From NCBI GenBank assembly GCA_016931415.1, contig JAFGEW010000040.1, positions 1 to 58,876 of the forward strand: a stretch of DNA of 58,876 nt, read 5' to 3'. A model generated the notes under the pieces. That model was not told the origin of the DNA. It was given only the letters and a program-made list of their open reading frames with translations, and did no database searches. Of this stretch, positions 37,141 to 46,946 are shown piece after piece. Both the position numbers and the translations under genes were made by a program. How positions within the stretch are numbered: the stretch's first letter is position 1; each line of letters begins with the position of its first letter. This DNA comes from Verrucomicrobiota bacterium (GTDB taxonomy: Bacteria; Auribacterota; JABMQX01; JAFGEW01).

Positions 37141-40134
37141 ATGGGACACCGCAGCACGACCCTTACCTTCGCCATTGTCATGCTCGCCGTCGTTGTCGTC
37201 TGGCTCATGTACAGAAACGCCGGCAAGAAACCGCACGAGGACTCACCCCAAGGCACCGAAACCGTCGACCGGACGCCGACCGCGACGGCGACGGCAACGA
37301 CGCCCAGGATCATCGTGGACGACGACTCGGCCGCCCCCGAGGTCGAGCCGGCTCGCGTCGGGCCAGGCCTGAGCGCCCTCAGGGTGTTCGTCATCGAGCG
37401 CGACGGCGCCCGCCCACCGGCACTTGCCGCGGCACTGGTCCCGCTTGTCGGCAACGGCCCGATCATCTATGCCCGGCTGCCGGGCAGGAACGCACGCACG
37501 GCTGACGTGGCCCCCGGCCGGTACCTGGTCGCCGTGCTCACGGCGAGCGAGGCATCAGAGCTCGCTGAGCCTTCGGCCGCCACCGTCCGCGTTGTCCGCG
37601 AGATCACGCTACGTCCCGGCCGGGTCGAGACGCTCGCGCTGCAGCTCGGCCCTCAACCGGCCGTGCGCGGCACCGTACGCAATCTCGACGCATGGCCCGT
37701 CGCCGACGCGACCGTGCTCGTGCAACCGGCGCTGCTCGCGTCCGCCGAGGCCCAGCGCCCGTCGTGGCTCACCTGGTTCGGCCGCACCAACACGGCCGGC
37801 GAGTTCCGCATCACGGCCGTGCCCGGCGGCAACCTCGTGGTTACCGCCGCCGCCAGGAACGGGACGCAGTGCAAGCGCGAACACCAAGCCGAGTTCGGCG
37901 ACGAGCTCGTCATGCATCTCGTCATGGGCGACGGCTCGGGACTGACCGGCACGGTAGTTGGCGAGGCAGGTGAGCCGATCGCCGCCGCCTCGGTGTTCGT
38001 CTGCGGCCGGGCCTCAGCACCGCGGCCAGGCTATGCCCTGGAGTGGGGCGACGTTCTCGCGCGTACGACAACGGACGCCGACGGACGGTACAAGACCGAT
38101 TCCCTGCCGCTTGCGGAGACGCTCCGCGTCGTCTTCGTCGCCAGTGGGTACGCCGCCACTGAGATCTCGTTCTCACTCGGCGCGCCCGACGGAGAAACGC
38201 ATGCAGGCACCTACACCAGCGACGGTCTGTGGGATCTCGGCGAGACACGCCTTGCACCCGAACAGCCCGTGATGGGCCGCGTGGTGTACTCTGACGATTC
38301 GCCCGTGGCCGGGGCCGAGCTGCGCGTGCGGCGCCTGGTTCGGGCCCGATCGGCCTCCGGCGTGGAATCCATGCTGATGGAGCCCGCGTTCCCCGAGGGG
38401 ATTGTGAGCGCCACGTCGGACAGCGAGGGCCGCTTCACCATCCGCGGACTCGGCCGGGGCGTCTGGCTGCTCGAAGCCCGAGACCTCGTCACGGGCCAGA
38501 CAGCGACAAAGGAAACAACGGGCACAGCGGACGAGACGGTGATCACCCTCCCTATAGGGCTGAAGCTCGCGGGCCGGATCACCGATGAAGCGACCCGCTC
38601 GCCAATCGCCGGCGCGGTCATCACAGCGGCCGACTCGAGGGCGACGTCGGATCCCCAGGGCCGTTACGAGCTGTGGCTTGGCTCCGGTCTGGGCGAGACT
38701 GACGTCGCCGCCCAGGCCGACGGCTACGAGCCACGCGTCGAGGAAAAGGTACAGCTCGCGGCGCACGAGACCGGGCTTGATCTGGCCCTCGCCCCCACGC
38801 GCGTGGCGCGGATCTGGCTCATCGACGAGAAGGACAAGGCGCCCGTGATCGGCGCGCCGGTGCGGTGGCGGCTCGTCGACGAACCCTTCGCACAGTCCTT
38901 GCTCCGGAGCTCGCTCGAGGGCGAGGTTGTCTTCTACAACGCCCGCCTCGACGATACGGTGCACATCGAGGTGGTCGACACGCGGTTCGTCCCCTACATC
39001 GCCGATGTGACGCTCACCGAGATCGACGGCAGGGAGATCGTCCTGCGCATGGGCGCAGCGATCCGCGGCCGCGTCGTCAACACCGCCGACGAGCCGATTG
39101 CCGGTGCCGAGATCTACGTGGGCGAGAGCTACCTCAACTTCGCCGACCCGTTCGTCAGGCGCGTCCGCTCGCTCGACGACGGCGCCTACGAGATGCCCGG
39201 CATGCCCGAGGGCATGTTCCAGCTCACCGCCGCGCATCCCGACTACATGACGACACAGTCGGAGGCCGTGGATACGCGCCATCGCAATGTGATCGACGGG
39301 GTCGATATCGTCATGGACACCGGTGTGACGATCTCGGGCCGCGTCGTGGATGAGACCGGCAACCCGATTGCCGCCGCCGTCGTGTGCGGCTGGGGCGATT
39401 TCAACTACGACCGCGACACGCCGGGCTACAAACGCTCGGCGACGTCCGACGCGCAAGGCCATTTCGAGCTGGGCGGCCTGCGGCGCACCACGGGCGGCCC
39501 GATCGTGATCTCGGCCTCGGCGCGCGGGTATGCCACCCGGACCGTATCGGTCGAGGTTGGCCCGGCGGCCGATGCTCCCGACGAGGAGGCTGTGATCGCT
39601 CTACGCCCGGAAGTCGTGTTGCGCGGCCGCACGGTGACCACCGACGGCATGCCCGTGGCCGGCGTACGCGTCTACGGGCAGATCAACGAACTCGAGAGCC
39701 GCGAGACTCACACGGACGCCGACGGTCGTTTCACCTTCGAGGGCGTGCAGGCCGGACAGCACACGCTCATCTTCACCCGCTCGGGCTTTCTCTACAAAAA
39801 GGCCGACCTCGTCGCCCTGCCTGAAGAGGAGCCGGCGGAGGCCGAGATCGTGCTCGAACCCGGCGCGCTCGTCGGCGGCCGCATCGTCAACGCGCGCTCC
39901 GGCGAGCCGATCCCCATCTTCAGCGGTCTGATCGCCACGCCCGACCGCATGCGCTCGTGGCGTCTCCACGTCCTCGGCGAGGGCCGGTTCACGACCGACA
40001 CCGTCCCCGACGGCGACTACGTGCTGATCATTGATTCGAAGAACATGCGCCCCACCACCGTCGAAGGGGTGGCGGTGCAGAACCACACCGGCCCGGAGCA
40101 CCTCGAAATCCGGATGGAGCCCCTACCGGACTGA
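37141..40134 (+). CDS. Long membrane-anchored protein of CarboxypepD_reg-type repeats
   Basis: 997 residues. One N-terminal transmembrane helix (about 8-23) is followed by a Thr/Glu-rich linker and about eight beta-sandwich modules of 80-100 residues. Each contains the hallmark G-x-V-x-x-x-x-G-x-P-x-x-x-A pattern (GTVVGEAGEPIAAASVFV, GRVVYSDDSPVAGAELRV, GRITDEATRSPIAGAVIT, GRVVNTADEPIAGAEIYV, GRVVDETGNPIAAAVV, GRTVTTDGMPVAGVRV) and a TDADGRF/SDSEGRF turn. Likely an extracytoplasmic adhesive or carbohydrate-binding protein. TATACT at 37106-37111 may be its -10 box, without a good -35. Confidence 0.85.
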   Translation: MGHRSTTLTFAIVMLAVVVVWLMYRNAGKKPHEDSPQGTETVDRTPTATATATTPRIIVDDDSAAPEVEPARVGPGLSALRVFVIERDGARPPALAAALVPLVGNGPIIYARLPGRNARTADVAPGRYLVAVLTASEASELAEPSAATVRVVREITLRPGRVETLALQLGPQPAVRGTVRNLDAWPVADATVLVQPALLASAEAQRPSWLTWFGRTNTAGEFRITAVPGGNLVVTAAARNGTQCKREHQAEFGDELVMHLVMGDGSGLTGTVVGEAGEPIAAASVFVCGRASAPRPGYALEWGDVLARTTTDADGRYKTDSLPLAETLRVVFVASGYAATEISFSLGAPDGETHAGTYTSDGLWDLGETRLAPEQPVMGRVVYSDDSPVAGAELRVRRLVRARSASGVESMLMEPAFPEGIVSATSDSEGRFTIRGLGRGVWLLEARDLVTGQTATKETTGTADETVITLPIGLKLAGRITDEATRSPIAGAVITAADSRATSDPQGRYELWLGSGLGETDVAAQADGYEPRVEEKVQLAAHETGLDLALAPTRVARIWLIDEKDKAPVIGAPVRWRLVDEPFAQSLLRSSLEGEVVFYNARLDDTVHIEVVDTRFVPYIADVTLTEIDGREIVLRMGAAIRGRVVNTADEPIAGAEIYVGESYLNFADPFVRRVRSLDDGAYEMPGMPEGMFQLTAAHPDYMTTQSEAVDTRHRNVIDGVDIVMDTGVTISGRVVDETGNPIAAAVVCGWGDFNYDRDTPGYKRSATSDAQGHFELGGLRRTTGGPIVISASARGYATRTVSVEVGPAADAPDEEAVIALRPEVVLRGRTVTTDGMPVAGVRVYGQINELESRETHTDADGRFTFEGVQAGQHTLIFTRSGFLYKKADLVALPEEEPAEAEIVLEPGALVGGRIVNARSGEPIPIFSGLIATPDRMRSWRLHVLGEGRFTTDTVPDGDYVLIIDSKNMRPTTVEGVAVQNHTGPEHLEIRMEPLPD

Positions 40135-40952: not shown

Positions 40953-41078
40953 GGCGCGGGCTTCTCCTTTCAGTTCCTCTTCGGCGCGCGGGACGCCGCT
41001 ACGCGAACCGCCGGGGCGCCAAATGCGGGCGCCTCGAAATAGTGGCATAGGATGGACGCCTCGAGGGCATAAAAAAAG

Positions 41079-41151
41079 TGCCGGGAGTCAGAGTCGAACT
41101 GACGACACGGGGATTTTCAGTCCCCTGCTCTACCACCTGAGCTATCCCGGC
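41079..41151 (-). tRNA. tRNA-Phe (GAA)
   Basis: 73 nt, reading from 41151 down to 41079. Acceptor stem GCCGGGA/TCCCGGC, D-arm GCTC...GAGC, anticodon stem GGGGA/TCCCC with loop CTGAAAA (anticodon GAA), five-base variable loop GTGTC, T-stem GTCAG/CTGAC with loop TTCGACT, discriminator A. CCA is not encoded. A T7 run follows within three bases and may terminate transcription. Confidence 0.97.
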
Positions 41152-41448: not shown

Positions 41449-42492
41449 ATGAAACGCAATGGAATCGCACTCGCAACCCTTCTGACGGCTGTCCTGTTGG
41501 CGCTCGCCTCGGCCCAGGCGGCACTGCCGTCACTGTCCATCGTCGCGGGCGGCGTCGATATCGCCCAGTACATGCCGAAGGACTCGACCTTCCTCGTCAC
41601 CATCAACGTGGGCAAGCTCGCTGAGACGGGCCTGTTCGAGACGGTCCAGCAGATGGGCGGCGAGGACGCATTCGCGGAGCTCGAAGCGCTTGGCATCGAC
41701 CCGGCCAAGGATATCGAGCAGTTCATGATCGGCATCGTGGTCGACCGCGAGAACCCGGACAATGACCCCAGCGTGTTCATGGCCCTGTCGGGCACGTTCC
41801 CGTCGGCGGACAAGTTCGTCGAGGCCTACAAGGCCGAACAGGAGGAGGACCCAGAGACACGCGAGGTTGACGGGAAGACCGTCTACACGATGGACGATGT
41901 CGATTTCTGTTTCCTCGACGGTGTGATCCTCGCCGTGCCGCTGGAGAGCGACGCCTCGGACATCGAGAAGATGCTTGGCGGCGCCGCCCAGAGCGTGGCG
42001 AGCAACGCCGAGCTGACGGCGCTCATGGCAAAGGTCAACAAGAAGGCCACCATGTGGGCCGTGGCCAGCCTGCCCGAGGAGCTGCGCGCGATGATGGCTG
42101 AGGATGCCGAGGACGCCCCGTTTGACGTCTCGACGCTCCAGACGCTGACCGGCGCGTTCGACTACGCCCAGAAGGTCGTGCTCGACGTCGCCCTTGGTTT
42201 CACCGAAGAGGACGGGGCCCAGAGCCTTGTCGACTTCTGGACCGCCCAGGTCAAGCCGATGGCCGAGATGATGGGCGAGCAGATGCCGGCGGTCGCCGAT
42301 CTCATTGGGGCGTGCGAGATGAAGGCCTCGGGCAAGATGGCCACTCTCAGCCTCAACATGGACAAAGCGGACTTCGACAGCGCCATCGAGAGCATGGTCC
42401 AGATGATCGCCGCTCCCATGATGGGCGGCGGCATGATGGAAGACGACACGATGGAAGACGACACGATGGAAGACGAGGACGCGGAATGGTAG
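41449..42492 (+). CDS. Secreted protein with acidic Met-Glu-Asp repeat tail
   Basis: 347 residues. A typical signal peptide (KRNGIALATLLTAVLLALASAQA) is cleaved near residue 24, releasing the protein to the periplasm or outside. The mature part is mixed alpha/beta with the opening IAQYMPKDSTFLVTINVGKLAETGLFETV, of the kind seen in DUF3352-like proteins of Planctomycetota-type genomes. The C-terminus carries three 5-residue MEDDT/MEDED units after a MMGGGM motif. CGAAGGAGAG precedes ATG 41449. A perfect 12-bp hairpin terminator follows. Function unknown. Confidence 0.85.
   Translation: MKRNGIALATLLTAVLLALASAQAALPSLSIVAGGVDIAQYMPKDSTFLVTINVGKLAETGLFETVQQMGGEDAFAELEALGIDPAKDIEQFMIGIVVDRENPDNDPSVFMALSGTFPSADKFVEAYKAEQEEDPETREVDGKTVYTMDDVDFCFLDGVILAVPLESDASDIEKMLGGAAQSVASNAELTALMAKVNKKATMWAVASLPEELRAMMAEDAEDAPFDVSTLQTLTGAFDYAQKVVLDVALGFTEEDGAQSLVDFWTAQVKPMAEMMGEQMPAVADLIGACEMKASGKMATLSLNMDKADFDSAIESMVQMIAAPMMGGGMMEDDTMEDDTMEDEDAEW
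42436..42480 (+). repeat. 15-bp tandem repeat in the secreted-protein gene
   Basis: Three in-frame units: ATGGAAGACGACACG at 42436-42450 and 42451-42465 (identical), and ATGGAAGACGAGGAC at 42466-42480. They encode the acidic tail and could vary in number between strains. Confidence 0.85.
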
Positions 42493-42540: not shown

Positions 42541-42580
42541 GCCCCCTGGGTCGTTACGGACCCAGGGGGCTTGCTTGTCT
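42541..42580 (+). terminator. Intrinsic terminator after the secreted-protein gene
   Basis: GCCCCCTGGGTC (42541-42552), loop GTTACG, GACCCAGGGGGC (42559-42570): a perfect 12-bp stem followed by TTGCTTGTCT. The T tract is interrupted, but the stem is very strong. Confidence 0.8.
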
Positions 42581-42610
42581 CTGGGTCTGGCGCGGCGCTG
42601 GGCAAAGGGG

Positions 42611-42639
42611 TTGACGAGCGGCCCACAAACATATATAGA
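42611..42639 (+). promoter_or_regulatory. Promoter of the GlmL-like operon
   Basis: TTGACG at 42611-42616, a 17-bp spacer and TATAGA at 42634-42639, placed shortly after the terminator of the preceding gene. Good match to the sigma-70 consensus. Confidence 0.65.
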
Positions 42640-42805
42640 GCATGGTTCCAGCCGCCTGAAGCAAGCGCCGCGGGGCGCAGGACCGAGTCCGGAACGGGCC
42701 GCGTCCGCCGCACAGGTTCCCGCCGGCGTCCCGTGGGCCGGCCGGCACACTTCGTCGAAGGCGGCGACCTCGTCCGAAACGGCGACCACCAAGCCAGGAG
42801 CGACC

Positions 42806-44629
42806 GTGGACATCGAGAAATCCGATTCCTTCCTGATCACCGATTGCGGCAGCACGACAACCAAGGCGATCCTCATCCTGAAGAAGGAAGGCTCGTACCG
42901 CCTGATCGATCGCGGTGAGGCGCCGACAACGGTCGAGGCACCGTTCGACGATGTCACCGTGGGCGTGATCACGGCCGTGACCGAGCTTCAGGAGATCACG
43001 GGCCGCACGTTGCTCGACGGCAACAAGATCATCTGCCCCAAGCGCGGGCCCGACGAGGGCGTCGACCTGTTTCTGTCGACCTCGAGCGCCGGCGGCGGCC
43101 TGCAGATGTGCGTTGCGGGCGTAATCAAGACCATGACGGCCGAAAGCGCCGAACGCGCCGCGCTCGGCGCGGGTGCCATCGTCATCGACGTACTCGCCGT
43201 CGACGACGGCCGCAAGGAATACGAGCGCATCGAGCGCATCCGCCACTTGCGGCCCGACATGTTCCTTCTGGCCGGCGGCACCGACGGCGGCACCAAGACA
43301 CACCTGGCCGACTTGGCCGCCACGCTGCTGGCGGCCGACACCAAGCCGCGCTTCGGCGTCGGCTACCAGCTCCCGGTGATCTACGCCGGCAACGTGGACG
43401 CGCGCGAAGCCGTGCATGACATCATCGGGGCCAAGATGGCCGTCCAGGACGTGGCCAACATCCGCCCGCGCCTCGAGGAGGAGAACCTCGGCCCGGCGCG
43501 CGAGGCCATCCACGACGTCTTCCTCGAACACGTTATGCAGCAGGCGCCCGGCTACAGCAAGCTCATGGGTTGGGTCAGCGGCGAGATCATGCCGACGCCG
43601 ATGGCCGTCGGCCGCGCGGTGCAGACGTTTGCCGACGACGAGAAGGCCAACGTGCTCGCCGTCGACATCGGCGGCGCCACGACGGACATCTTCTCGGTCT
43701 TCGGCGACGCGCGCACCGGCGAGCAAGTCTTCAACCGCACCGTGAGCGCCAACTACGGGATGAGCTACTCGATCTGCAACGTGCTCAAGGAGGCCGGCAT
43801 CGCGAACGTGGCCAAGTGGGTGCCGTTCGAGATTGATGAGCCGCACCTGCGCAACATGCTGCGCAACAAGATGATCCGGCCGACCACCATCCCCTCGTCG
43901 CTCAGTGACCTGCTTATCGAGCAGGCGATCTCGCGCGAGGCGCTCCGCCTGAGTCTCGATCACCACAAACTGCTCGCCGTCGGCCTCAAGGGCGTCCAGC
44001 AGCAGCGCAGCGTCTCGGACGCCTTTGCCCAGACCGACAGCGGTGGAACGCTGGTCAACTTGATGGATCTCGACTGGGTCATCGGCAGCGGCGGCGTGCT
44101 TAGCCACGCGCCGAGCCGCACCCAGGCGGCTTGGATGATGCTCGACGGCTTCCAGCCCCAGGGCGTGACCCACTTGGCGGTGGACTCGATCTTCATGATG
44201 CCGCAGATCGGCATCCTGAGCGAGCTGCACCCGGCGGCGGCGAGCGAGGTCTTCCGGCGCGACTGCCTTATCGTGCTTGGCTCGGCGGTGGCGGCCGTCG
44301 GCCATGCCAAGAAGGACGGGGCGCCGTGCCTGACCCTGAACCTGAGCACGAGCGACGGCCGCACGATCAGCGAGACGGTCAACTACGGCCAGATGCGCCT
44401 GATCCCGCTTGCCTTGGGCCAAACGGCCCAGGGAACGATCTCGCCGGCGAAGCACTTCGACATTGGCAGTGGGCCGGGCCGGACGCGCGAGGTCAAGCTG
44501 CGCGGCGGCGTGGTTGGCCTGATCATCGACTGCCGCGGCATCCCGAGGCGGCTGCCCGAGGCCGACGGGACGCGGCGCTCCAAGCTCAACGAGTGGGCCG
44601 AGGCGCTCGGCCTGCCGCGCGTCGAATAA
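42806..44629 (+). CDS. GlmL/MutL-like ASKHA ATPase
   Basis: 607 residues. Phosphate-binding loop 1 is LITDCGSTTTKAILI (about 10-24) and the second is VLAVDIGGATTDIFSVFGD, the actin/HSP70-fold ATPase pattern. DMFLLAGGTDGGTKTHL and WVIGSGGVLSHAP are shared with the MutL/GlmL proteins that accompany glutamate mutase and ornithine aminomutase in clostridia. Those act as reactivating or chaperone-type ATPases for B12 enzymes. No mutase gene is nearby. GTG 42806 follows AGGAG. The partner gene follows at 54 bp. Confidence 0.85.
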   Translation: MDIEKSDSFLITDCGSTTTKAILILKKEGSYRLIDRGEAPTTVEAPFDDVTVGVITAVTELQEITGRTLLDGNKIICPKRGPDEGVDLFLSTSSAGGGLQMCVAGVIKTMTAESAERAALGAGAIVIDVLAVDDGRKEYERIERIRHLRPDMFLLAGGTDGGTKTHLADLAATLLAADTKPRFGVGYQLPVIYAGNVDAREAVHDIIGAKMAVQDVANIRPRLEEENLGPAREAIHDVFLEHVMQQAPGYSKLMGWVSGEIMPTPMAVGRAVQTFADDEKANVLAVDIGGATTDIFSVFGDARTGEQVFNRTVSANYGMSYSICNVLKEAGIANVAKWVPFEIDEPHLRNMLRNKMIRPTTIPSSLSDLLIEQAISREALRLSLDHHKLLAVGLKGVQQQRSVSDAFAQTDSGGTLVNLMDLDWVIGSGGVLSHAPSRTQAAWMMLDGFQPQGVTHLAVDSIFMMPQIGILSELHPAAASEVFRRDCLIVLGSAVAAVGHAKKDGAPCLTLNLSTSDGRTISETVNYGQMRLIPLALGQTAQGTISPAKHFDIGSGPGRTREVKLRGGVVGLIIDCRGIPRRLPEADGTRRSKLNEWAEALGLPRVE

Positions 44630-44683
44630 CCACCGGAGCCGAAGCGGGACGACAAACGCAACGACTGAAGGAGCGACGAGCAC

Positions 44684-45796
44684 GTGGGCACAGCCTATAC
44701 ACCGGGACTGACCGTCACCTCGAACACGATCGTTCGCAAGACGCGCAAGCTGCCGATCAAGGGCACGGTCCTCGTCAACGTGGGCGACCGGGTTGAGCCC
44801 GATTCGACTGTGGCGCGCGCCGACTTGCCCGGTGACCTCGACCAGATCAAGGTGGCCCACATGCTTGGAGCCAATCCCGCCGAGGTGCCCGGCAAGATGC
44901 TCTTCAAGCTCGGGGACCGGGTCGAGCAGGGCCAGGTCATCGCCCGCACGACGTACTTCTTCGGCTGGTTCAAGTCCGAGGCGAAGGCGCCGAGCACGGG
45001 CACAATCGAGTACATCAGCGACGTCTCGGGCAACGTCGGCGTCCGCCTTCCGCCGCGGCCTGTCGAGCTCACCGCCTACGTGCAGGGCACCGTGGTCGAA
45101 GTGATCCCGGATGAAGGCGTTGTCATCGAGACGCCCGCGGCGCTCGTGCAAGGCATCTTCGGGATCGGCGGCGAACGGGAGGGCCGTCTGCACGTCATGC
45201 CCGAGCCCGACCGCACGATCGAAGAGCGCGACATCACCAAGGAGCTGGCCGGCCGGATCATCATCGGCAGACGGCTCATCACCGGCGCCGCGCTTCGGCG
45301 CGCAGGCCAGACCGGCGTGGTCGGCGTCGTCGTCGGGGGCATAGTCGACAAGGAACTCGTCGATCTGCTCGGCTACGAGATCGGCGTGGCCATCACGGGC
45401 GATGAACAGGTCGGCGTCACCCTCGTGCTGACCGAGGGCTTCGGCGAGATCGAGATGGCCCATAAGACCTTCGAGCTGCTCAGGTCGCTCGAGGGGCGCG
45501 ACGGCTCGATCAACGGCGCGACGCAGATCCGCGCGGGCGTGATCCGGCCCGAGGTCATCGTGCCGCATCCGGGCAGCGCCTCGGACGCCACGGTGGCCGT
45601 CGGCGGCGGCGAGCTCAAGATCGGGTCGCATATCCGCGTCATCCGCGAGCCCAACTTCGGCCATCTTGGCACGGTCACGGCGCTGCCGCACGAGCTCGTC
45701 CTCATCGAGACAGGCGCCAAGGTCCGCGTGCTTCGGGCTGACCTCGACAGCGGCGAGGCCGTTGTGGTCCCGCGCGCCAACGTCGAACTGCTCTGA
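44684..45796 (+). CDS. Conserved partner of the GlmL-like ATPase, barrel-sandwich type
   Basis: 370 residues, no family recognised. Two lipoyl/biotinyl-like hammerhead halves can be seen: LPIKGTVLVNVGDRVEPDSTVARADLPG and MLFKLGDRVEQGQVIART...KAPSTGTIEYISDVSGNV, the arrangement of RnfC- or HlyD-like barrel-sandwich domains. A Gly-rich IIIGRRLITGAALRRAGQTGVVGVVVGGIVDKELVDLLGY stretch and a KOW-like end (IGSHIRVIREPNFGHLGTVTALP) follow. No lipoylated Lys in a DK pattern is visible. GTG 44684 has GAAGGAG upstream. It is co-directional with the ATPase and probably forms a complex with it. Confidence 0.75.
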   Translation: MGTAYTPGLTVTSNTIVRKTRKLPIKGTVLVNVGDRVEPDSTVARADLPGDLDQIKVAHMLGANPAEVPGKMLFKLGDRVEQGQVIARTTYFFGWFKSEAKAPSTGTIEYISDVSGNVGVRLPPRPVELTAYVQGTVVEVIPDEGVVIETPAALVQGIFGIGGEREGRLHVMPEPDRTIEERDITKELAGRIIIGRRLITGAALRRAGQTGVVGVVVGGIVDKELVDLLGYEIGVAITGDEQVGVTLVLTEGFGEIEMAHKTFELLRSLEGRDGSINGATQIRAGVIRPEVIVPHPGSASDATVAVGGGELKIGSHIRVIREPNFGHLGTVTALPHELVLIETGAKVRVLRADLDSGEAVVVPRANVELL

Positions 45797-45842
45797 GTGA
45801 CGCCGCCCGGGTTGGGCGGCTGCGTATGGAGGAAAGGACACC

Positions 45843-46946
45843 ATGGACGAAGCCCTGTGCAGGGAACACATCGCCAAGGCACGCGCCGAGCTCGATCGGA
45901 GCAACGTCGACGTGCTCTATGTCTCGTCGGCGGCCAATAACCTGTACTTCACCGGAGCAGCCGTCGGACCGGGCGACCGCGTCGTCGCGCTGTTGCTCAC
46001 GCGCGACGGTGAGCCGTCGCTCGTCGTCCCGGGCTTCGAGGCCAACCGCATCCGGCAAGACCGCCTCGTCGGCGACATCGTCTCCTGGGAGGAGCACGAG
46101 AGCCCGTTTGCGCTGATCGCCGACATCCTGCACGAGAAGGGCCTCGCGTCGGGTCGTATTGCCCTCGACGGCCAGACTTGGTACTGGGTCGTCCAGGGGT
46201 TGCGCGAGGCCCTGCCCCAAGTCGAGTTCGTCAACGGCGAGCCTCTGATCAACCGCTGCCGCATGCGCAAGAACGAGCGCGAGATCGGCTTCCTCGAGCA
46301 GGCCTGCGCCATCACGGCCAAGGTGCTGACCGCCGCGGTGGCCCAGTTTCGCCCAGGGATGACTGAACTCGAATTCGCCGAAGTGATCTCGAACAACTAC
46401 CTCGAACGCGGTCATCAGAGCGGCTCGCTCGTCCAGAGCGGCCCGCGCGCCTCCGACCCCCACGCCCCCGCCGGCGACCGGCCGATCGTCCTCGGCGACG
46501 CCGTCGTGCTCGACAGCGGCTGCCGGGTCGAGGGCTTCTGTTCGGACATCTCGCGCACCCTTCTGGTGGGCAAGGTCTCCGGCGAGATCAGCAAGGCCTG
46601 GAGCGTGCTCAAAGACGCCCAGCAGGCGGCCCTCGACGCCATCCGGCCCGGCGCCACCTGCGAGTCCATCGACGCCACCGCGCGCAACTGGCTCGCCGAA
46701 CGCGGCTACGGCGACTACTTCCTCCACCGGCTTGGCCACGGCATCGGCATCGAGGGTCACGAGTATCCCTATCTCGTCGGCGGCAACACGCTGCCGCTCG
46801 AGCCGGGCGTGACCACGAGCGTCGAACCGGGCATCTATGTGCCCGGCAAGTTCGGCATGCGCATCGAGGACGTCATGGTTGTCACCGACGACGGCTGCCG
46901 CGTGCTGTCGCCCACAGCTCCCCGCGACATGGCCTGGTCGGCGTAG
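45843..46946 (+). CDS. M24 family aminopeptidase (Xaa-Pro peptidase)
   Basis: 367 residues with the pita-bread fold. The N-terminal creatinase-like domain (about 1-125) is followed by the catalytic domain with metal ligands Asp and Asp in VVLDSGCRVEGFCSDISRTLLVG, His in HRLGHGIGIEGHEYP, Glu in TSVEPGIYVPGKFG and Glu in RIEDVMVVTDDG. It cleaves N-terminal residues before proline. GGAGGAAAGG precedes ATG 45843, 46 bp after the GlmL-partner gene, so it may share their transcript. Confidence 0.94.
   Translation: MDEALCREHIAKARAELDRSNVDVLYVSSAANNLYFTGAAVGPGDRVVALLLTRDGEPSLVVPGFEANRIRQDRLVGDIVSWEEHESPFALIADILHEKGLASGRIALDGQTWYWVVQGLREALPQVEFVNGEPLINRCRMRKNEREIGFLEQACAITAKVLTAAVAQFRPGMTELEFAEVISNNYLERGHQSGSLVQSGPRASDPHAPAGDRPIVLGDAVVLDSGCRVEGFCSDISRTLLVGKVSGEISKAWSVLKDAQQAALDAIRPGATCESIDATARNWLAERGYGDYFLHRLGHGIGIEGHEYPYLVGGNTLPLEPGVTTSVEPGIYVPGKFGMRIEDVMVVTDDGCRVLSPTAPRDMAWSA

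Follow-up and report, generated by a model that had tools for sequence, protein, structure and literature searches.

A MutL-family ATPase and its barrel-sandwich partner as probable parts of a widespread envelope system with a DUF6754 membrane cassette

The subject of this analysis is a two-gene locus in a 58,876-nt stretch of DNA (the window: positions 1 to 58,876 of contig JAFGEW010000040.1, assembly GCA_016931415.1) from a Verrucomicrobiota bacterium that GTDB places in the Auribacterota. The first gene encodes a member of the MutL family, which is known from operons for B12-dependent amino-acid mutases; we call it MutLx. The second encodes a 370-residue partner, BSH. An original prediction, made from the nucleotide sequence, had described a full-length GlmL/MutL-like ATPase followed by an unnamed barrel-sandwich protein, and had proposed that the two form a distinct two-protein system in this lineage. 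Both open reading frames are present, and the features of the locus are as follows.

42541-42570, plus strand: terminator-like hairpin between the upstream gene and the pair (12-pair stem, T-rich tail, RNA fold)
42806-44629, plus strand: MutLx, predicted MutL-family ASKHA-type ATPase, 607 aa (PF13941 match; about 120 aa past the MutL/GlmL profile)
44684-45796, plus strand: BSH partner, 370 aa (AlphaFold2 model, fold matches; sub-threshold RnfC_N)
45843-46946, plus strand: M24 peptidase, Xaa-Pro type (PF00557 and PF01321 above cut-off)

Both frames of the pair start with GTG, with AGGAG 5 nt upstream of MutLx and AAGGAG 10 nt upstream of BSH, and BSH begins 54 nt downstream of MutLx. The preceding gene ends at 42492 and is followed by the hairpin (RNA fold z -2.81; 4 of 200 shuffles fold equally well), a strong terminator candidate that plausibly ends that gene. 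The pair had been credited with a terminator-insulated promoter of its own; the terminator part is supported, and for the promoter part a scan returned 0 sigma-70-like consensus sites. The M24 peptidase gene starts 46 nt 3' of the pair and is possibly co-transcribed with it. We place it outside the conserved system because none of the 149 fetched loci contains a homolog. A 1116-aa open frame on the minus strand (42554-45904) lies antisense to the whole pair; it is a high-G+C artefact of a kind that misleads length-based gene calls. The counts given below were therefore taken from matches of family hidden Markov models (HMMs) on stop-to-stop frames, the HMMs having been built partly from the same loci that were counted.

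Against the Pfam MutL model (PF13941), MutLx scores 422.5 bits (cut-off 27) with residues 10-487 covering model positions 2-450 of 450, in keeping with a full-length family member, and about 120 C-terminal residues extend past the model. Three motifs are invariant in a nine-row alignment: DCGSTTTK (residues 13-20), DIGGATTD (287-294) and a later GSGG. We take the first two to be ASKHA phosphate loops and the third to be the adenosine motif, and with these MutLx is a predicted ATPase.

PF13941 membership and ASKHA-type phosphate loops are common to MutLx and to GlmL and Or-4, accessory proteins encoded in the operons for glutamate mutase and ornithine 4,5-aminomutase. MutLx might then be an ordinary accessory protein of the GlmL/Or-4 type, serving as chaperone or reactivase for a B12-dependent mutase encoded elsewhere in the genome. 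The NCBIfam GlmL, Or-4 and glmL_fam models do match it at E-values of 2e-67, 2e-64 and 2e-49, and the genome has 10 B12-binding-domain matches (not individually identified). However, MutLx falls below all three cut-offs: 227.8 against 475 bits for GlmL (NF040745), 217.9 against 600 for Or-4 (NF040744) and 168.7 against 204.05 for glmL_fam (TIGR01319). The predicted absence of a mutase near the pair was confirmed and can be extended to the whole genome, which has no match to MCM-type mutase (PF01642) or glutamate mutase E (PF06368), although aminomutases were not searched genome-wide with their own models. Among 44 genomes of the window's phylum, MutL occurs in 15 and MCM mutase in 7, with an overlap of 0 (Fisher p 0.08); MCM is thus absent from 15 of 15 MutL genomes. 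MCM mutase was found in 27 of 50 BSH genomes of other phyla compared to 8 of 14 control genomes, which is no enrichment.

As controls for the mutase accessory type, we used PF13941 proteins fetched from other BSH-bearing genomes. These reach about 145-177 bits with the MutLx HMM, versus 787-1078 for MutLx rows. Three of them (L209, L210, L212) adjoin an ornithine/lysine aminomutase subunit and another (L213) adjoins a B12-binding protein. The Or-4 cut-off is passed by L209 and L210 and the GlmL cut-off by L213; L212 lies below the Or-4 equivalog cut-off and passes the subfamily cut-off only. The control GlmL/Or-4 proteins are 450-540 aa long and stand beside B12 enzymes, whereas MutLx proteins are about 600 aa long, carry the C-terminal extension and occur with BSH and, as described below, with DUF6754. 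In a quick tree (79 rows, reduced to 70 after near-duplicates were dropped; L210 left out as a partial match; long-branch warnings for other rows), 59 MutLx rows make up one side of a branch with a Shimodaira-Hasegawa-like approximate likelihood ratio test (SH-aLRT) value of 98, and the four canonical GlmL/Or-4 rows sit on another branch (SH-aLRT 99), so that in this tree MutLx forms its own clade, apart from canonical GlmL/Or-4. Given the sub-cut-off scores, the lack of MCM or glutamate mutase and the separate clade, we consider a role as mutase helper very unlikely. PF13941 proteins in these genomes are nonetheless easily mistaken for glutamate mutase parts.

For BSH, an AlphaFold2 model built from 52 sequences (predicted local distance difference test, pLDDT, 88.8; predicted TM-score, pTM, 0.71) was compared with solved structures. 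The fold matches suggest three parts.

BSH residues about 11-130: barrel-sandwich region
BSH residues about 130-300: RraA/aconitase-X-like swivel domain
BSH residues about 310-370: KOW domain

Residues 49-123 align with the barrel-sandwich of RnfC (8rbq_C; Z 7.8, 64 residues, 2.4 A). For residues 129-302 the matches are RraA (1j3l_A; Z 9.4, 133 residues, 4.4 A), AF_0055, which we take to be the small subunit of aconitase-X (2hi6; Z 9.2, 110 residues, 2.5 A), and rifampin phosphotransferase (5hv2; Z 7.8, 101 residues, 3.1 A); by sequence profile, RraA 3c8o is reached at E 0.27. Residues 309-370 superpose on NusG/Spt5 KOW domains over 49-54 residues at 1.0-1.9 A (Z about 8), and by sequence profile alone the KOW match is weak (SPT5, E 0.47). 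A typical best background Z is 7-8, and the swivel values of 9.4 and 9.2 are barely above it. Because the fold scores are so close to background, only the modelled KOW end can be called firm. BSH had been described as two hammerhead-like halves with a KOW-like end; the model agrees with the KOW end and with one barrel-sandwich region, and replaces the second half with a swivel-like alpha/beta domain.

The likeness to RraA, the aconitase-X small subunit and the swivel domains of phosphoenolpyruvate (PEP)-utilising enzymes is a resemblance of fold, confined to residues 129-302. PEP-utilising enzymes carry a phosphohistidine stretch, and because by eye this stretch seems not to be kept in BSH, phosphotransfer is unlikely. 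In its barrel-sandwich, BSH is like RnfC/NqrA-type proteins, but a Pfam scan found no Fer4 (ferredoxin) domain in it and the rest of the protein is the swivel-like domain and KOW. Since it also scores 22.2 bits with RnfC_N (cut-off 25.6) and 12.2 with NCBIfam RsxC (cut-off 345), we do not identify it as RnfC or RsxC. Pfam and NCBIfam profile searches assigned BSH to no named family above threshold, so it remains unnamed, as first described. Over the aligned set, identity to the window protein is 41-59%, with QGIF, TEGFG and RAGV invariant. We found no solved structure convincingly related by sequence to MutLx or BSH, or to the MutLx, BSH and DUF6754 profiles.

BSH is present in 14 of the 44 genomes of the window's phylum. 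In 20 of 20 loci fetched from this phylum (regions around 28 other BSH matches), MutLx lies upstream of BSH, with about 2 kb between them in L040 and a cut locus in L039. One genus of the phylum has up to three paralogous MutLx-BSH pairs per genome, in differing surroundings. A genome-collection search returned 575 confirmed BSH relatives in many phyla. Loci were taken from the best 80 of these, which come from Armatimonadota, Zixibacteria, WOR-3, Eisenbacteria, Poribacteria, Latescibacterota, Bacillota and others, and 50 of their genomes served for the whole-genome tests for MutL, DUF6754 and MCM in other phyla. In six loci from six genomes (L214-L218, L220), one polypeptide of 849-1158 aa joins the two proteins, with MutLx N-terminal and BSH C-terminal. 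Such fusion is the best evidence that both would work together. We conclude that MutLx and BSH do belong together as a pair, and that they do so independently of B12 mutases.

Several variants of the pair were also seen. The genomes with fusions hold separate MutLx and BSH genes as well, the fusions being a paralogous group. Eight Bacillota loci (L063, L071, L088, L107, L117, L118, L121, L130) have two tandem MutLx-BSH pairs, in which one of the BSH copies, of about 450-480 aa, has two matches to the barrel-sandwich part, as a duplication would give. A diverged pair (L219:2878-9411; HMM scores of 384 and about 171 bits) has two FtsX-type permeases and an ABC (ATP-binding cassette) ATPase as neighbours, with an AraC-type response regulator further upstream.

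In the genus with up to three paralogous pairs per genome, two of the three MutLx-BSH pair types adjoin a gene of the DUF6754 family (PF20539). This gene heads a cassette with the order DUF6754-M6-C4a-C4b, which is full in 73 of 85 distinct copies (counted after dropping copies that share the same 100-residue stretch). Where more than 3.5 kb of downstream sequence is available, the order is intact in 67 of 69 distinct copies, the two exceptions being L200, in which the C4a match is split in two, and L201, in which the order is changed. In L035, L042 and L045, C4a is fused to C4b. Hydropathy predicts two transmembrane (TM) helices in DUF6754, which flank the family domain, and about five in M6; C4a would have a helix at either end, and C4b about three to four in all. 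The longer proteins of the DUF6754 family begin, by eye, with a signal peptide and a fibronectin type III (FnIII)-like stretch followed by a single TM helix before the family domain, and because of this arrangement the domain is predicted to face the cytoplasm. The central domain of C4a is probably on the outer side, judging by eye from its charge pattern. A DUF6754 model (L203; pLDDT 87.4, pTM 0.81) places a Rossmann-like domain between the two TM helices. Its best match is a Sir2 enzyme (Z 11.9), followed by phosphoglycerate kinase, RCK domains and phosphoheptose isomerase; these are too generic to name the family by fold. DUF6754 proteins range from 256 to 976 aa and M6 from about 205 to 645 aa, with variable N-terminal extensions, which suggests modules fitted to different loads. 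No recurring substrate gene was found near the cassettes, the commonest neighbour cluster occurring at 6 of 51 cassette loci.

The cassette is often found with two small accessory proteins, C7 and C8, both of them upstream of MutLx or DUF6754. C7 (L089:7404-7817) has about 100-140 aa and a conserved PA-x-x-x-LE-x-x-KP stretch; C8 (L089:6948-7403) has about 150 aa and two TM helices. The C7 of L096 weakly resembles CCDC47 (17.2 bits, below cut-off). Omp85/POTRA, OmpH-like and GNA1162-like envelope genes occur near some pairs or cassettes (L037:10393-14365, L203:13989-15875, L206:7563-8655), in too few cases for a link.

The occurrence of DUF6754 follows that of the pair closely. In the 44 genomes of the window's phylum, MutL is found in 15, BSH in 14 and DUF6754 in 13, and all 13 carry BSH and MutL; DUF6754 is thus present in 13 of 14 genomes with BSH and 0 of 30 without it (Fisher p ~3e-10). 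A second phylum of 299 genomes gave 25 with DUF6754, 24 with BSH and 23 with both, so that DUF6754 is found in 23 of 24 BSH genomes and 2 of 275 others; without three preselected genomes, 20 have both, 1 has BSH only, 2 have DUF6754 only and 273 have neither. In other phyla, MutL scores above cut-off in 46 of the 50 BSH genomes and DUF6754 in 44, compared to 0 of 14 control genomes for DUF6754.

Pair and cassette are also physically linked in places. C7-DUF6754-M6-C4a-C4b-MutLx-BSH is one gene run in L229-L233. Four Bacillota loci (L071, L088, L118, L121) and L234 have the cassette followed by two tandem MutLx-BSH pairs, and in Zixibacteria L089 the order C35-C8-C7-MutLx-BSH leads into two complete cassettes and a partial third one. 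Linked orders were found in L032, L033, L037, L038, L127 and L128 as well.

It could be argued that this association reflects shared ancestry or lifestyle, with old genes kept in the same lineages and no shared machine. Our samples are not tree-corrected, and the genes are mostly unlinked in Armatimonadota and WOR-3. However, tight same-strand linkage recurs in different orders and phyla; in 10 of the 12 cassette-linked BSH loci the genes share a strand and are 76-543 nt apart; and the overlap of 23 among 24 arises in 299 genomes where only about 8% have either. We regard this explanation as very unlikely.

In sum, the pair is adjacent and in places fused, the cassette keeps a fixed order, and the two co-occur strongly in two independent samples and occur in single operons. 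The pair is not restricted to this lineage, nor is it a system of two proteins only; the original prediction was right about the pairing and too narrow about its extent and company. We think it probable that MutLx-BSH supplies the cytoplasmic side, a shared ATPase with its adaptor, of a widespread envelope machine not described before, with the four-gene DUF6754 cassette as its membrane part. Several observations weigh against this. MutLx was found in only 32 of the 80 genome-collection BSH loci (adjacent on the same strand in 30, or in 26 of the 64 where more than 2.5 kb separate BSH from the start of the locus), cassette genes were found in only 12 of the 80, and the parts are scattered in Armatimonadota. 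Within the window, neither cassette genes nor C7 or C8 were seen beside the pair, and because of this its physical linkage to a cassette holds there only by analogy. Three genomes of the second phylum break the pattern: G102 lacks DUF6754 while carrying BSH and MutLx, and G112 and G187 lack BSH while carrying the cassette; among the 50 genomes of other phyla (completeness not stated), 6 are without DUF6754 and 4 without MutL over the cut-off. The co-occurrence counts ignore the relatedness of the genomes, and the TM and sidedness assignments come from hydropathy and eye only.

The window's genome has DUF6754 at four places (230-275 bits, cut-off 27), none inside the window. It thus combines one MutLx-BSH pair with four unlinked cassettes: L200 (contig C61), L201 and L203 (C99) and L202 (C68). 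More generally, at least two DUF6754 matches, some of them fragments, are found in 22 of 44 DUF6754-positive genomes. In the mechanism we propose, MutLx would hydrolyse ATP in the cytoplasm and BSH would bridge it to the cytoplasmic domain of DUF6754, passing on motion or recognition. The nucleotide cycle of MutLx would alter the state of the membrane module by opening, loading or assembling it, and the module would work across the cytoplasmic membrane with the C4a domain on the far side. Because there is one pair for four cassettes in the window's genome, one pair may serve several interchangeable modules.

The same figures can be read another way. As the main rival to a shared envelope ATPase, MutLx-BSH could act in the cytoplasm as a chaperone or assembly factor of a general kind, with DUF6754 cassettes as one frequent client among several, spending ATP on assembly only and not powering the module. 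One pair for several cassettes, in the window's genome and where DUF6754 is repeated, would suit such a role, as would the diverged pair beside permeases and an ABC ATPase; GlmL relatives are, moreover, thought to serve as mutase helpers. On the other hand, near-complete co-occurrence with DUF6754 in two samples suggests one main partner, and compact single operons speak for a stoichiometric complex. An assembly role would be compatible with both, and we consider it possible, if rather unlikely. We infer ATP-driven work on the membrane modules, and the suggestion of the original prediction that the pair is an ATP-driven assembly or energy-coupling device may now be tied to a concrete membrane module. 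Transport or export of a load across the envelope is our leading guess for what that work would be, and it is a tentative one. Equally tentatively, we envisage an undescribed class of ATP-driven envelope machine, spread over many phyla, in which an actin-fold GlmL-type ATPase and BSH would power interchangeable DUF6754-M6-C4a-C4b modules that export or move material across the cytoplasmic membrane.

Energy-coupling factor (ECF) transporters, in which a shared energising module serves many substrate modules, offer a works-like analogy only, with one ATPase pair and several membrane modules per genome. Unlike the ABC ATPase of ECF transporters, MutLx is of the actin fold; the modules have four subunits, and the likeness is drawn from genes alone.

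Apart from DUF6754 itself, Pfam and NCBIfam searches returned no curated family for the partner or the cassette, and literature searches on DUF6754, PF13941/PF20539 and GlmL/MutL phrases found nothing relevant, most subscription journals lying outside the search. Because there is no curated family beyond DUF6754, no convincing solved relative and, within that range, no literature, we take the system to be new, with a mechanism and even a broad function that are so far proposals. What looked like a mutase accessory protein without a mutase becomes a defined system of 6-8 genes, whose parts, order and distribution are known and whose function is therefore directly testable. The PF13941 proteins of these genomes would gain a common context with DUF6754, for which we found no described function. 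If the ATPase does power the membrane modules, the actin fold would be put to a new use in membrane energetics.

A plasmid or phage origin of the pair was rejected, as its DNA had no match in plasmids and the BSH protein none in plasmids and phages. PADLOC defence models, which cover described systems only, matched 0 of 8 proteins at E 0.01. PilM, the mark of a type IV pilus ASKHA complex, is absent from the general Pfam scan listing, no search aimed at it having been made. Elsewhere in the window, positions 37141-40134 encode a 997-aa protein with many carboxypeptidase regulatory-like (beta-sandwich) repeats, and a tRNA-Phe (gaa) lies on the minus strand at 41078-41151, about 1.7 kb upstream of the pair.

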